A DNA stretch of 64,000 nucleotides, taken from positions 248,001-312,000 of the forward strand of contig NZ_CP141285.1 of the NCBI RefSeq assembly GCF_035319885.1. Reading direction: 5' to 3'. A program made the translations under genes and the position numbers. Shown piece by piece: positions 5,569 through 58,827 of the stretch (positions are counted from its first letter, which is position 1; every line of letters begins with the position of its first letter). Below the pieces are notes generated by a model. The model was not told where the DNA came from and searched no databases. It was given only the letters and a program-made list of their open reading frames with translations. Origin of the DNA: Altererythrobacter sp. H2 (lineage in GTDB: Bacteria; Pseudomonadota; Alphaproteobacteria; Sphingomonadales; Sphingomonadaceae).

Positions 5569-5868
5569 TCAGTACTTGAGCTGGCGCTCGTAGAGATCGC
5601 GGTAGTGCTGGATACGGGTCACCCGGAGGCCCTGCATTCCGGAGCGGTCAACCGCGCGCTGCCACGAGGCAAACTCCTCGAGGGTCAGGTTGTAGCGCTC
5701 CAGCACTTCGTCGATGGTGAGCAGCCCGCCATTCACGGCAGCGACGACCTCGGCCTTGCGACGCACGACCCAACGGCGGGTGTTCGGCGGCGGCAGGTCA
5801 GCCACCGTCAGCGGCTCCCCGAGCGGGCCGATTACCTGGGCCGGGCGGATTTTCTGGTTCTCGATCAT
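5569..5868 (-). CDS. sciP: CtrA inhibitor SciP (DUF1153)
   Basis: This 99-residue helix-turn-helix protein of the DUF1153 family corresponds to Caulobacter SciP. SciP binds CtrA at promoters and blocks CtrA-dependent transcription during the cell cycle. The diagnostic core is VIGPLGEPLTVADLPPPNT, then RRWVVRRKAEVVAAVNGGLL and the helix-turn-helix segment around LERYNLTLEEFASWQRAVD. The length is that of the family. The ATG overlaps the stop of the small upstream gene (ATGA), so the two are probably co-translated. A CtrA-type box is also present in this window (56214-56228). Confidence 0.93.
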   Translation of the reverse strand: MIENQKIRPAQVIGPLGEPLTVADLPPPNTRRWVVRRKAEVVAAVNGGLLTIDEVLERYNLTLEEFASWQRAVDRSGMQGLRVTRIQHYRDLYERQLKY

Positions 5869-40955: not shown

Positions 40956-41663
40956 TTACTCGCCGCTGGCTTCACCGGCCCGCTTGGCTTCGAGCCAGGC
41001 TGCGGCTTCCGCTTCCTGCGCTGCCTCGGCAGCGGCCTTGCCGGCCTCTTCGCGTTCAGCGCGCAGTTCCGCAATCAGCTTGTCGCGATCGGAGGTGTCT
41101 TCTGCCGCAATCTCGGCCAGCTCGGGCGCCTCGGCGGTGCCGGCCTTCTTGGCAGCCTTGGCCACCATCGCGTCAAGTTCGCGCTGCGAACACAGGCCGA
41201 GTGTAACGGGATCCTTCGGCTGAATGTTGGCGATGTTCCAGTGGCTGCGATCACGGATCGCCGCAATCGTGTTGCGCGTGGTCCCGATCAGCTTGCCGAT
41301 CTGCGCGTCAGTGATTTCCGGATGGTTGCGCAGGATCCAGGCGATGCCGTCGGGCTTGTCCTGCCGCTTGGACACCGGAGTGTAGCGCGGACCCTTGGTG
41401 CGGGTCGCCTCGACCGGAGCCTTCTGCATCTTGAGGCGATAGGCGGGATCGGCCTGACCGCGCTCGATTTCGGCCAGCGTCAGTTCGCCCGAATGCAACG
41501 GATCACGCCCGGTGTACTTGCTGCCGGCCAGATCGTCAGCCATGGCCTGCACTTCGAGGATGTGGATGCCGCAGAAATCAGCGATCTGTTCAAAGCTGAG
41601 CGCGGTGTTGTCAACTAGCCAGGTGGCAGTGGCATGCGGCATCAGCGGGGTGGGTTGGGCCAT
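40956..41663 (-). CDS. trcR: Cell-cycle transcriptional regulator TrcR (DUF1013)
   Basis: The 235-residue alphaproteobacterial protein has a DUF1013 region (PLMPHATATWLVDNTALSFE, FCGIHILEVQAMADDLAG, DPLHSGELTLAEIERGQAD). A helix-turn-helix-like segment (ITDAQIGKLIGTTRNTIAAI) and the stretch RSHWNIANIQPKDPVTLGLC follow. The C-terminal 55 residues are an Ala/Glu-rich charged helix. Family members are annotated as cell-cycle transcriptional regulators acting with RNA polymerase. AGGAAAAC precedes the ATG. A terminator-like hairpin lies just upstream. Confidence 0.9.
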   Translation of the reverse strand: MAQPTPLMPHATATWLVDNTALSFEQIADFCGIHILEVQAMADDLAGSKYTGRDPLHSGELTLAEIERGQADPAYRLKMQKAPVEATRTKGPRYTPVSKRQDKPDGIAWILRNHPEITDAQIGKLIGTTRNTIAAIRDRSHWNIANIQPKDPVTLGLCSQRELDAMVAKAAKKAGTAEAPELAEIAAEDTSDRDKLIAELRAEREEAGKAAAEAAQEAEAAAWLEAKRAGEASGE

Positions 41664-52881: not shown

Positions 52882-53441
52882 GGTCGGCTCTCCCAGGTTG
52901 GCCGGTCAACAGAGTACACGATAGTGTCCCGCCACGGCGGATCGTACCGGTGGTCGGCATAGTCGAGGTCTGCGCGTCGGCCCATCCAGAGTCGTTTCAT
53001 CAGGCCCCAGCTGGCGCTGTTGCCCTCCACCGTCAACGCGACCACCTCCTCTGCGCCGAACCGCTCGAACGCCAGCGCGAGGGCCGCCTGCGCGGCCTCT
53101 TTCGCATAGCCATGGCCCCAGGCATCTTCGCGCAGGCGCCAGCCGATCTCGATCGCACCTGTGACGGTCGAGCCGGGTGCGTCAGCGCGCTTCAAACCAC
53201 AGAAACCCAGCAACGCGCCGTCAGCCTTGCGCTCGACCGGCCAGAAGCAGAAACCGTTGCGGGCGGCGCATTGCTCGACCCGGCCACGCTGCATCGCCAT
53301 GCCATCCACGCCGAGCACCCCGCCCAGCCATTCCATGACGGCGGGCGTATTGGTTACGCGGAAAAACTCCGCCCAGTCGGCGTCGCCGCGCCAGTCGCGC
53401 AGCACCAGCCGGTCTGTTTCGCAGCGGAAAGCTTCAGCCAT
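52878..53441 (-). CDS. GNAT family N-acetyltransferase (RimJ/RimL-like)
   Basis: The 187-residue enzyme begins MAEAFRCETDRLVLRDWRGD and has the acetyl-CoA loop in IEIGWRLREDAWGHGYAKEA (R/Q-x-x-G-x-G/A region, here LREDAWGHGYA) and VVALTVEGNSASWGLMKRLW. The substrate is unknown. ATG 53441 overlaps hemB by eight bases; the frame open upstream of it lies inside hemB and is not used. Confidence 0.88.
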   Translation of the reverse strand: MAEAFRCETDRLVLRDWRGDADWAEFFRVTNTPAVMEWLGGVLGVDGMAMQRGRVEQCAARNGFCFWPVERKADGALLGFCGLKRADAPGSTVTGAIEIGWRLREDAWGHGYAKEAAQAALALAFERFGAEEVVALTVEGNSASWGLMKRLWMGRRADLDYADHRYDPPWRDTIVYSVDRPTWESRP

Positions 53442-54429
53442 GGAGCAGGCGCGCGGCATGGGCGGCATGGTAGGTGAGCACGCCCGAACAACCCGCACGC
53501 TTGAACGCTGTCAGCGTTTCCAGCACCAAGGCATCGCGATCACCGGCCCCCGCTGCCGCAGCCGCTTCGATCATCGCGTATTCGCCGCTGACCTGGTAGG
53601 CAAACACCGGAACTTCGAACCGCTCCTTCACCCGGCGGACAATATCGAGGTAGGGCAAGCCGGGTTTGACCATGACGCTGTCTGCCCCTTCGGCAAGATC
53701 GAGCGCGACTTCGCGCAGCGCCTCCTCGCCGTTGGCGGGATCCATCTGGTAGCTCTTCTTGTCGCCCTTGAGCAGCCCGCCCGAACCGACCGCGTCGCGA
53801 AACGGGCCGTAGAAGGCGCTGGCGTACTTGGCGGCGTAGCTCATGATCTGGACGTTGTGATGCCCGGCCATTTCCAGCGCCATGCGGATTGCCCTGACCC
53901 GCCCGTCCATCATGTCGGAGGGGGCGATCACGTCTGCCCCGGCATTGGCCTGGTTTACGGCCTGGTCGACCAGTACGGCCACGGTGTCATCATTGATCAC
54001 ATAACCACGCTCGCCAAGCAGGCCATCCTGGCCGTGGCTGGTATAGGGGTCGAGCGCTACATCCGTGAGCACGCCAATATCGTGTCCGCAGGCATCCTTG
54101 ATGGCCTTGATCGCCCGGCACATCAGGTTGTCGTGATTGAGCGCTTCGGCTCCGTCGTCACTGCGCCGGTCAGCCGGGGTGTTGGGGAACAGCGCCACAC
54201 AGGGAATGCCGAGTGCGGCCGCTTCCTTGGCCCGCGCAGCAATGCCATCGACCGACCAGCGCGATACGCCCGGCAGGCTGGCGATCGGCTCCTCCACGCC
54301 GGAACCACTGGTCACGAACAGGGGCCAGATCAGATCGGCCGGAGCCAGAACCGTTTCACGATGGAGAGCGCGGCTCCAGCCATGGGCGCGAGGCCGGCGG
54401 AGGCGGAGATTGGGATAGGCTGGTGTCAT
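53434..54429 (-). CDS. hemB: Porphobilinogen synthase (5-aminolevulinate dehydratase)
   Basis: The 331-residue enzyme condenses two ALA molecules in haem synthesis. It has LIWPLFVTSGSGVEEPIASL, TDVALDPYTSHGQDG, VIAPSDMMDGRVRAIRMALE, and the catalytic lysine regions in MSYAAKYASAFYGPFRDAVG and VMVKPGLPYLDIVRRVKERF. SHGQDG in place of the cysteine-rich zinc site indicates the metal-site class that lacks the Cys triad. It is the first gene of the overlapping cluster running down to DUF167. Confidence 0.96.
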   Translation of the reverse strand: MTPAYPNLRLRRPRAHGWSRALHRETVLAPADLIWPLFVTSGSGVEEPIASLPGVSRWSVDGIAARAKEAAALGIPCVALFPNTPADRRSDDGAEALNHDNLMCRAIKAIKDACGHDIGVLTDVALDPYTSHGQDGLLGERGYVINDDTVAVLVDQAVNQANAGADVIAPSDMMDGRVRAIRMALEMAGHHNVQIMSYAAKYASAFYGPFRDAVGSGGLLKGDKKSYQMDPANGEEALREVALDLAEGADSVMVKPGLPYLDIVRRVKERFEVPVFAYQVSGEYAMIEAAAAAGAGDRDALVLETLTAFKRAGCSGVLTYHAAHAARLLHG

Positions 54430-54506
54430 GGCCGACTACCTGCCGCAATCCCGCAGCCGGCGCAATCCGCACCGAACAACGGGGCGATGATGTCAGGGCA
54501 GGGCCG

Positions 54507-56129
54507 TCACGGCAGGCGGCGCGCCTGGTCGAGCCGGTCAATTTCGCGCGCCGGTTCCTCGTTGGCGTTCTCCACCGCAGTGGGCGCCAGATCGACCAGC
54601 GCCGCACCCGGAGCAACCGTCTTGAGGCTGGCAAGCGTGGCGCGGAACCGGCGCAGTTCCTCGCCGCCGAGCTGAGCCCGGGTAACGAACGACACGGAAG
54701 CCGGGTTCACGGCCCGCCCGCCGCGATACATTTCGTAATGCAGGTGCGCGCCGGTGGAGAGACCGGTCGATCCGACATAGCCGATCACCTGGCCCCGGCG
54801 GACGCTTTGCCCTGCGCGCACCGCCATGCGGCTCATGTGGCAATAGCGGGTCGACAGTCCCCCGCCGTGCTCAAGACGGACTGCAATCCCGCAACCGCCC
54901 ATCCGGCCGGCACCTGAAACGCGCCCGTCGGTCACCGCAACGATCGGCGTGCCGTGCCCGGCAGCAAAATCCATCCCGCTGTGCATCCGGCGATAGCCAA
55001 GGATGGGATGCCGCCGCATCCCGAAATTCGAACTGATCCGCCCTGGAACGGGGGCGAGCAGGCCGGCGCGCTGTTCGCCCACCCCCGATGCCTCGTAGAA
55101 CCGGCCGTCCTTGCCCCAGCGCATCAGCTGGACCTGCGGTTTGTCGCCCCGGTCCACCCCGGCATAGACCAGCCGCCCGGCCTCACGCTCCCCGGTGGCA
55201 GCCCGGCGGTACTGGACGATCAGGTCGAAGGTATCGCTCGCCCGCACGCTCCGCTCCATGTCGACTTGGTCGTTGATCGCGGCGAGATACTGCTGCACCG
55301 CGCTGGGCGGGGCGCCGGCAGCGCGGAGCGACCGGTACAGGCTGCGCCCGACGTTTCCGCGAATACGCAAAGGGGTGTCATCCACCCGGATCGGCTTGCG
55401 TGTCAGCACCAGGCCGTTTTCGCCGCGCGAGACTTCCAGCGCCAGATCGAACCGGGCGCGAAAGGCGAGGGAATCGAGCGGGCGTGGCTGGCCGGGACTG
55501 GTCCTGCGGCCGAGGGTGATGTCGACCTGGGTGCCGGGGGTGACATCGGTCAGGTCAATGGCGTTCGACACCAGCCCCAGCACCCGGCTGGCGTCCGCCC
55601 CGCCGACCCCGGCACGCTCCAGCATCCGGGCAAAACTGTCCCCGCGAGAAAGGGTGGCCAGCAGCTGCTGGGTTGGCCGCTCCGGCGCCGACCGGAGCGG
55701 CTTGACGTCGAGCGTCGCGCCCATATGCCGGCCGCTGTCCCCACCCAGGGCAAGCGGCATGATCATGTGGCTGCGAAATTCATCCCGCGCAGGCTCGTCA
55801 ATCAGCATGGCGGGCGCCGCCTCGAGCGGGCCGAAACTGGGCCAGAACCCTATCGCCAGGGCACTCAGCCCGATCAGGGTGCCAAGCCCGCGAAACCAGG
55901 TGCGGCTGCCGATCCCGCTCGCCAGATCCGGGGTCAGGTTCAGCCGTTCGAGCCGGTCAGAGACATCGTGTCGCCACGAATCGTAGCGCTCCAGCATGGT
56001 ACCGGTCCGCTGGAGGATGCGGGGGCGCGGATCAGGCGCCAGCTGGGTGTGGGCCAGAGCAACCGCGCGCCAGCCACCCTGGTCGGCCAGCGCCGCCTCG
56101 ATCCCGGCAACATCGCGCTCGCTGTACAC
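54507..56129 (-). CDS. M23 peptidoglycan endopeptidase with membrane anchor
   Basis: The 540-residue protein has a cytoplasmic N-terminus of about 80 residues, one helix (GLGTLIGLSALAIGFWPSFG), an OapA/LysM-like module (LLATLSRGDSFARMLERAGV) and a C-terminal LytM domain. Both zinc motifs are complete (RMHSGMDFAAGHG and GAHLHYEMYRG), so it should be an active DD-endopeptidase. I favour GTG 56129, with GGGAG nine bases upstream and strong third-position GC below it. ATG 55997 and GTG 56168 are alternatives. A CtrA box lies 85-100 bases upstream. Confidence 0.88.
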   Translation of the reverse strand: MYSERDVAGIEAALADQGGWRAVALAHTQLAPDPRPRILQRTGTMLERYDSWRHDVSDRLERLNLTPDLASGIGSRTWFRGLGTLIGLSALAIGFWPSFGPLEAAPAMLIDEPARDEFRSHMIMPLALGGDSGRHMGATLDVKPLRSAPERPTQQLLATLSRGDSFARMLERAGVGGADASRVLGLVSNAIDLTDVTPGTQVDITLGRRTSPGQPRPLDSLAFRARFDLALEVSRGENGLVLTRKPIRVDDTPLRIRGNVGRSLYRSLRAAGAPPSAVQQYLAAINDQVDMERSVRASDTFDLIVQYRRAATGEREAGRLVYAGVDRGDKPQVQLMRWGKDGRFYEASGVGEQRAGLLAPVPGRISSNFGMRRHPILGYRRMHSGMDFAAGHGTPIVAVTDGRVSGAGRMGGCGIAVRLEHGGGLSTRYCHMSRMAVRAGQSVRRGQVIGYVGSTGLSTGAHLHYEMYRGGRAVNPASVSFVTRAQLGGEELRRFRATLASLKTVAPGAALVDLAPTAVENANEEPAREIDRLDQARRLP

Positions 56130-56213
56130 GCGCTTATTCTCCCAGAGGTACTGGCGGCACGCCTGCACCCGACCCAAGCGGCCCCTATGGCCGGGTTTCC
56201 TGCACGATTAAAG

Positions 56214-56228
56214 TTAAGTCCGCTTTAA
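56214..56228 (-). promoter_or_regulatory. CtrA-binding box
   Basis: On the minus strand TTAA (56228-56225), seven bases (AGCGGAC) and TTAAC (56217-56213) give the full TTAA-N7-TTAAC consensus. It lies in the 190-base divergent gap between the M23 peptidase (minus) and the SUV3-like helicase (plus). The orientation and an 84-base distance to GTG 56129 suit activation of the peptidase. Control of the helicase is also possible. Confidence 0.7.
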
Positions 56229-56319
56229 GACGCGACCAGCCGAGTCTCCTGCCGGACAGACTGTGGGGCGAACCGCTAGCACGCTTGTTTGGGCTGCAAT
56301 GCGCTGCCACATTGCCCCC

Positions 56320-58827
56320 GTGACCGACAGCACGATCAAGGCGGTTCTCGGGCCCACCAACACCGGGAAGACGCATCTCGCGATCGAGCGGATGTGCGCC
56401 CATTCGAGCGGCGCGATCGGCTTTCCCCTGCGCTTGCTGGCCCGCGAGGTCTATGACCGGGTGGTTGCGCAGAAGGGCGCCGGCCAGGTGGCCCTGATCA
56501 CCGGCGAAGAACGGATTGAGCCGGCAAACGCCCGCTATTTCTGCTGCACAGTCGAAGCCATGCCCCGCTCCGCCGGAGACCATGCCTTTCTCGCTCTCGA
56601 CGAAGCCCAGCTGGCGGCCGACCCCGAGCGCGGCCATGTGTTCACGGACCGCCTGCTCCATGCCCGCGGACGTGAGGAAACCATGCTGCTCGGCGCAGCC
56701 ACGCTCGAACCCCTGGTGCGCAGCCTCCTGCCTAGGGCCGAGATCGTCTCCCGCCCGCGCTTTTCTACCTTGACCCATATCGGCCCGCGCAAATTGTCGC
56801 GCCTGCCGCCGCGCAGTGCGATCGTCGCGTTTTCGGCGGACCAGGTCTATGCCGTGGCCGAAATGCTGCGCCGGTTTCGCGGGGGCGCGGCGGTCGTGAT
56901 GGGCGCGCTCAGCCCCGAAACCCGCAACCGGCAGGTTGCCTTGTTCCAGTCAGGCGAGGTGGACTACATCGTGGCCACCGATGCCATCGGGATGGGCCTC
57001 AACCTTGACGTCACCCATGTTGCCTTTGCCGGCCTTACCAAGTTCGACGGGCGCAAGCAGCGCCGCCTGTTCCCGGCGGAAATGGCGCAGATCGCGGGGC
57101 GGGCGGGGCGGCATCACAAGGATGGCACCTTCGGAACCCTGGCAGGGCAGCAGGGCGGCTCCCCGGAGTTCACCGAAGAAGAAATCTACGCCATCGAGGA
57201 GCACCGTTTCGCGCCGCTGACCCGGTTGTTCTGGCGTGAATCCGAACTGGTGTTCGATTCGCTGAGCACACTGATCGACGATCTGGAACGGCCGCCCGAC
57301 GAACCCGAACTCGCCGCTGCGCCCGAGGCGATTGATCTCGCCGTCCTGAAACGGCTGGCGGCCGAGCCGCTGGCCCATGACGTGCGCGGAACAGCACTGG
57401 TCCGGCATTTCTGGGAGGCTTGCTCGTTGCCGGATTTCCGCCAGTCAGGCGCAGATACGCATGCCCGCTTCGTTGCGCGCCTGTGGCAGGATCTGCGGCA
57501 CGGGCATCTCGGCGCCGACTATGTGGCGGCGCGCATTGCCGAACTCGACAGCGTGACCGGCGATATCCATGCCCTGCAGGGGCGGATCGCCGCCATCCGC
57601 AGCTGGGCCTATATCTGCCAGCGCCCGGACTGGGTGCTGGCGCGTGATGAAATGGCTGCCCGTGCGCGGGGAGTGGAAGCGCGGTTGTCCGATGCGCTAC
57701 ACGCCCGCCTGACCGAACGATTCGTCAACCGGAGGACCGCTATCCTGATGAAGACGCTGGGACAGGATGCCGCCTTGCTGCTGGTGGCATGCGCACAGGA
57801 TGGCACGGTGACCGTCGAAGGTGAAGCCATCGGCCGGATGGAGGGCTTTGCCTTCTCGGTCGACCACCGCGCCACTCACGAGGATCGCCGGATGCTGCTG
57901 GCAGCCGGGGAGAAATCCCTACCGCGCCTGCTGGCGGAGCGAGCCGACGCGCTGGTCGCGAGCGAATTCGCGGGCGTGGAACTGGCGCAAGGTACGCTTC
58001 GCTGGGATGGACGGGTACTGGCAACCCTGGAGGCAGCCACGGACATCCTGCACCCGCGCCTGGTGCCGGCGCGGGATCTGACCCCACTGCCGGAGCCGGC
58101 CCGCCAGCGCCTGCTGTCAGGACTAGAGGCCTGGCTGGCCGGCCAGCTCAGACCGCTCGCGCCTCTCGCAGCACTGCAGGTGGCGGCCCGGGATCCGGCT
58201 GCCGGATCGCAGGCCCGCGCCCTGTTGCTGACACTGGTGGCGGGGCACGGCTATGTCTCCCGCGAACAGGCCGGGCTGGAGCATCTGCCCAAGGATCTGC
58301 GCCCGTTCCTGCGGCGGCTCGGCGTCACCTTTGGCGCACTCGACGTCTTTGCGCGCGAACTGCTCAAACCTGCCCCCCGCCGCCTGCTCCAGGCGCTGGG
58401 GCTGGACCGCAGGCCGATCAACCCCGACATGGTGCCAGTTCTCAAGGGGGCGGCCCCCCTGCCGTCCGGCTATCGCCCGGCAGGAGACCAGCGCGTGCGG
58501 CTCGACATTGCGGAAAAACTGCTGCGGGCCGCCCATGACGCACGCAGCGCAGCCGCCGCAGGCCGTGATCCCCGCCGGGCCCGGTTCCGGATCGATCCTG
58601 CACTCGCCATTTCGACCGGGCTGGAGCTGGCCAGCTTTCACCGGTTGCTCGGCGCGGCAGGGTTTCGCCGCCTGCCTGCGCGCACGCTTGCGGCCGGAGT
58701 TGCCGGTCCCCCGGCGCCCGACAAATGGGAATGGCGTCCTGTGCGCAGGGATATCCGCAAGACAGAAGGCCCGGCGAAGCCCGCGGCGGGCAATGCCTTT
58801 GCGGCCCTGGCAGACCTGGTGCGCTGA
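56320..58827 (+). CDS. SUV3-like DExH helicase
   Basis: The 835-residue SF2 helicase has Walker A GPTNTGKTHLAIERM, Walker B LALDEAQLAADPERGHVF, the VATDAIGMGLNLDV segment (motif V) and QIAGRAGRHHKDGTFG (motif VI). A long C-terminal region holds the SUV3-type C-terminal domain (PLTRLFWRESELVFDSLSTL). In mitochondria SUV3 unwinds RNA for decay; the bacterial role is unsettled. Start candidates are GTG 56320, ATG 56299 and GTG 56263; 56320 places the protein start eight residues before the motif, as usual. It overlaps the S4 gene. Confidence 0.9.
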   Translation: MTDSTIKAVLGPTNTGKTHLAIERMCAHSSGAIGFPLRLLAREVYDRVVAQKGAGQVALITGEERIEPANARYFCCTVEAMPRSAGDHAFLALDEAQLAADPERGHVFTDRLLHARGREETMLLGAATLEPLVRSLLPRAEIVSRPRFSTLTHIGPRKLSRLPPRSAIVAFSADQVYAVAEMLRRFRGGAAVVMGALSPETRNRQVALFQSGEVDYIVATDAIGMGLNLDVTHVAFAGLTKFDGRKQRRLFPAEMAQIAGRAGRHHKDGTFGTLAGQQGGSPEFTEEEIYAIEEHRFAPLTRLFWRESELVFDSLSTLIDDLERPPDEPELAAAPEAIDLAVLKRLAAEPLAHDVRGTALVRHFWEACSLPDFRQSGADTHARFVARLWQDLRHGHLGADYVAARIAELDSVTGDIHALQGRIAAIRSWAYICQRPDWVLARDEMAARARGVEARLSDALHARLTERFVNRRTAILMKTLGQDAALLLVACAQDGTVTVEGEAIGRMEGFAFSVDHRATHEDRRMLLAAGEKSLPRLLAERADALVASEFAGVELAQGTLRWDGRVLATLEAATDILHPRLVPARDLTPLPEPARQRLLSGLEAWLAGQLRPLAPLAALQVAARDPAAGSQARALLLTLVAGHGYVSREQAGLEHLPKDLRPFLRRLGVTFGALDVFARELLKPAPRRLLQALGLDRRPINPDMVPVLKGAAPLPSGYRPAGDQRVRLDIAEKLLRAAHDARSAAAAGRDPRRARFRIDPALAISTGLELASFHRLLGAAGFRRLPARTLAAGVAGPPAPDKWEWRPVRRDIRKTEGPAKPAAGNAFAALADLVR

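Follow-up and report, generated by a model that had tools for sequence, protein, structure and literature searches.

A conserved CtrA-type box points to CtrA control of a MepM/ShyA-like M23 endopeptidase gene in Altererythrobacter sp. H2 and its family

The window, i.e., the whole 64,000-nucleotide stretch of Altererythrobacter sp. H2 DNA analyzed here, carries a gene for an M23 peptidase that diverges from a gene for a SUV3-like helicase, with a candidate box for the cell-cycle regulator CtrA in the intergenic region (Table 1). A preliminary description of this DNA had proposed an active-type M23 peptidase opposite a SUV3-like helicase. Both assignments agree with the domain matches, and the zinc-ligand motifs HxxxD and HxH of the peptidase are intact in its translation (HSGMD and HLH). 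The nearest models are MepM and ShyA, and 3slu, 6muk, and ShyA are among the top-ranking structures in the PDB. Like MepM of E. coli, ShyA of Vibrio, and Csd3-type enzymes, the predicted protein combines a Csd3_N2-like second domain with a catalytic M23 domain; it differs from them in its lower model scores, its family-specific N-terminus, and its CtrA-type promoter. Because these scores fall below the NCBIfam equivalog cut-offs (147.5 vs. 341 for MepM, 135.6 vs. 700 for ShyA), the enzyme, which resembles these DD-endopeptidases, is referred to as MepM/ShyA-like and filed as neither.

Table 1 Features of the M23 promoter region and related features in the window and elsewhere in the genome. 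Positions are those of the window unless a genome coordinate is given.
Feature	Position	Strand	Remarks
Region of hemB, up to M23 stop	53434-54507	-	same strand as M23 gene
MepM/ShyA-like M23 peptidase, GTG start	54507..56129	-	PF01551 (2.4e-33) and Csd3_N2
Predicted weak -10-like CATAGG	56184..56189	-	17 bases after -35; conserved C/A, columns +39/+40; predicted
Predicted -35-like TTTAAT	56207..56212	-	directly 3' of box; conserved columns +16 to +21, Erythrobacteraceae side; predicted from position
Candidate CtrA box TTAA-AGCGGAC-TTAAC	56213..56228	-	exact consensus match, unique in genome, conserved at orthologous promoters
GANTC (CcrM-type) site GAGTC	56242..56246	.	18 bases upstream of box
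CCACATTG	56307-56320		few bases 5' of helicase GTG; recurs in relatives
SUV3-like helicase, divergent	56320..58827	+	PF22527 (3.4e-25) and Helicase_C; judged not main box target
SciP	5569..5868	-	DUF1153 (PF06627); one of two genome paralogues; context only
TrcR	40956..41663	-	PF06242, 3.7e-62; context only
Second SciP (DUF1153) paralogue (L115)	G000:C1:2686497-2686754		outside window, same genome
One-mismatch boxes (ctrA, CcrM-like methylase, two Tad-pilus genes)	G000:C1:661331-661346, 1085340-1085355, 1680758-1680773, 1683075-1683090		outside window

The minus-strand sequence TTAAAGCGGACTTAAC fits TTAA-N7-TTAAC exactly, with its end 83 bases upstream of GTG 56129, in accordance with the exact CtrA consensus described earlier in front of the M23 start. 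Pattern searches, from which all whole-genome box counts derive, found TTAA-N7-TTAA(C) only at this position, in the window as well as in the entire genome of 3,238,348 bases. The reversed control pattern was more common: its 16-mer form matched 9 times, and its 15-mer form had 22 strand matches. TTAA spells a stop codon on either strand and is uncommon in coding DNA of high G+C content; the genomic rarity of the box is therefore weak proof by itself, and conservation is the real test.

Conservation of the box was evident at two scales. Among 40 named relatives with a helicase anchor, nearly all of them Erythrobacteraceae, the eight core letters are all intact in seven, and the majority of the rest carry, at the corresponding site between the M23 and helicase genes, a box that deviates by a single letter; their alignment reads TTA[A/G]-N7-TT[A/T]AC-TTT[A/G]AT, the spacer being variable. 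A second, broader sample of 80 M23 loci was taken from the host's family and spans many genera. In M23 orientation, TTAA-N7-TTAAC was found exactly in 27 of these loci, with one mismatch in 40, with two in eight, and in a poorer state in five, counts that come from loci of shared descent and hence not from independent trials. Dinucleotide shuffles yielded frequencies of only 0.0002 for exact matches, 0.0087 for one mismatch, and 0.112 for two. When the spacing was scanned from 2 to 15, exact matches occurred at spacing 7 (27 loci) and spacing 6 (three loci) and nowhere else. Shuffles, spacing scan, and conservation together rule out a chance match, and the TTAA-N7-TTAAC spacing, for which an alignment of orthologous upstream regions had been suggested, is strongly upheld, with 67 of 80 loci at no more than one mismatch and exact matches almost confined to N7. 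About 13 of the 80 M23 promoters lack a box at this level of similarity.

The distribution of the box is narrow. Ten M23 paralogues gave a single weak hit, and no box was found at M23 homologues from outside the host's family but within its order. The box is thus, as judged from these comparisons, specific to this M23 gene and to the host's family, and neither a general feature of M23 genes nor an order-wide one.

M23 and helicase genes face away from each other in almost every genome, which raises the question of ownership; in Caulobacter, flgB and fliO have one divergent CtrA site in common (PMC6180460), and the box could by analogy serve the helicase, or both genes, with M23 as a mere neighbor. 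Genomes in which the two genes lie apart make this very improbable. The helicase is sited elsewhere in four genomes (G076, G065, G126, and G043) and is separated from M23 by a repeat-rich stretch in a fifth (G099). In all five, the box stays upstream of M23, with an intact eight-letter core in three and a single mismatch in the other two. Upstream of the relocated or displaced helicase, no box with one mismatch or fewer was found. Since the box is kept with M23 and is missing at the separated helicases, we assign it to the M23 gene, and the helicase is ruled out as its main target. In the usual divergent arrangement, the polarity of TTAAC also points to M23, with 27 exact matches toward M23 vs. 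six in the opposite orientation among the 80 loci, and the helicase start codon is ~90 bases away from the box.

The position of the box within the promoter bears on the direction of control. In the window's clade, it is followed directly by TTT[A/G]AT, with a weak, C-A-rich predicted -10 element 17 bases farther downstream; in the outer genera, it encloses TTGACT, which is followed by CACAGT. There (L147-L192), box and predicted -35 are fused in one 16-mer, TTAATTTGACTTTAAC or near it, that recurs in many of these genera. The weakness of the predicted -10 elements is consistent with the finding that most Novosphingobium promoters are without a conserved -7 T (PMC8407463). In Caulobacter, CtrA activates from sites close to -35 and represses from sites that overlap -10 (PMC6180460); as CtrA would sit at the predicted -35 region in both layouts, activation is likely here too. 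Repression of the peptidase by a bound CtrA that blocks RNA polymerase is conceivable for the many outer-group genomes with a TTGACT -35 inside the box, where CtrA could compete with the polymerase, yet it is unlikely in view of the Caulobacter precedent and of the location of the box just upstream of the predicted -35 in the window's clade. Part of the conservation does consist of TTGACT or TTTRAT, plausible -35 elements, and the patch could be no more than an A/T-rich core promoter or the site of another regulator, such as CenR, a further OmpR-type envelope regulator of alphaproteobacteria (PMC9275681). This is less probable still, given that exact matches are essentially limited to the 7-base spacing and that Erythrobacteraceae-side promoters keep both half-sites, TTA[A/G] and TT[A/T]AC, while the spacer between them varies. 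CenR itself is ruled out as the regulator at the box, its motif TGA-N8-TGA being absent near the box in all 70 of 70 promoters.

The same alignments bear on gene boundaries. In orthologues, the start codon is conserved ~70–90 bases 3' of the box, which supports GTG 56129 over ATG 55997 as the predicted M23 start and agrees with the earlier suggestion that the box favors a start upstream of ATG 55997. At the other end of the gene, hemB, which is encoded on the same strand, starts ~78 bases past the M23 stop, and the putative CtrA promoter might therefore also reach hemB.

The genome encodes a CtrA equivalog (NCBIfam NF045991, 426 bits vs. a cut-off of 350). Compared with a Caulobacter CtrA sequence, it is 78% identical overall and looks identical in the recognition-helix stretch. 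One-mismatch boxes lie upstream of ctrA itself (TTTACGGCGCGTTAAC), of a CcrM-like DNA methylase gene (N6_N4_Mtase and RAMA domains), of two Tad-pilus genes, and of genes for GGDEF/EAL proteins and response regulators. Several one-mismatch boxes in the genome are extended to TTAACCAT, a CtrA motif variant in Caulobacter (PMC6180460). We regard these predicted sites, which include near-consensus boxes at genes that are classical targets of CtrA, as a draft CtrA regulon for the genome. Exact boxes number a median of 2 per genome in the host's family, with no enrichment over the reversed control, and CtrA in this family may therefore act mostly through degenerate sites.

Because most of the related bacteria examined have this site in front of the same gene, CtrA very probably controls this wall-cutting M23 enzyme. 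The direct control proposed in the preliminary description is thus favored by the conservation of the box, its fixed spacing, and its retention with M23. Specifically, we put at roughly 0.8 the probability that the box is a genuine CtrA site in the M23 promoter, at which phosphorylated CtrA activates the peptidase gene so that its expression tracks CtrA activity. Most likely, a dimer of phosphorylated CtrA would bind the two TTAA half-sites adjoining the predicted -35 and recruit RNA polymerase, thereby activating rather than repressing transcription of the peptidase gene, and synthesis of the MepM/ShyA-like enzyme would follow CtrA activity in time. Such a promoter would resemble CtrA-regulated promoters of Caulobacter, Hyphomonas, and Rhodobacter in having a full TTAA-N7-TTAA(C) near a predicted -35 and a CtrA equivalog in the genome, but would differ from them in its target, a MepM/ShyA-like endopeptidase. 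For Hyphomonas, the CtrA consensus from ChIP-seq is TTAA-N7-TTAAC (PMC7200025). A Sphingomonas melonis study, counted in that paper among reports of very similar CtrA motifs (PMC7200025), likewise concerns a sphingomonad CtrA; the outputs reported for it are motility and biofilm formation, with no wall-enzyme target mentioned in the accessible text. Among open-licence papers, neither a prior report on CtrA with M23, LytM, or MepM nor ChIP data from a sphingomonad were found.

The M23 promoter is accordingly a strong new prediction for the CtrA regulon, combining a known kind of site with an unexpected, family-wide target. Descriptions of CtrA in sphingomonads present it as controlling motility and biofilm formation and as non-essential, and a box retained at one wall endopeptidase throughout the family points to a role in the envelope. 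The box defines a precise and testable promoter that would tie a cell-cycle regulator to peptidoglycan cutting. Cell-cycle timing of the enzyme is speculative, since ctrA was reported to be dispensable in Sphingomonas melonis (PMC7200025, PMC8116508). A further input is suggested by GANTC sites, which are over-represented upstream of the box on the Erythrobacteraceae side: nine of 25 promoters have one at the identical position, and 11 of the 25 do so when a range of 9 bases is allowed, vs. 3% expected, suggesting that CcrM methylation may act on the M23 promoter. Tentatively, and with the odds somewhat against it, driving a wall-loosening endopeptidase could be a core, family-wide job of sphingomonad CtrA, to which the CcrM site would add replication-dependent timing in Erythrobacteraceae. 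If so, wall cutting would be under cell-cycle control even in bacteria for which CtrA is non-essential, and CtrA would be more than a motility regulator.

The window also encodes SciP and TrcR, as described previously and in agreement with their domain matches. TrcR and SciP genes lie ~14 and ~50 kb from the box, respectively, and their co-occurrence adds little to the CtrA reading of the M23 promoter. On the helicase side, the recurrent sequence CCACATTG is possibly the -10 element of a leaderless helicase promoter distinct from that of M23.
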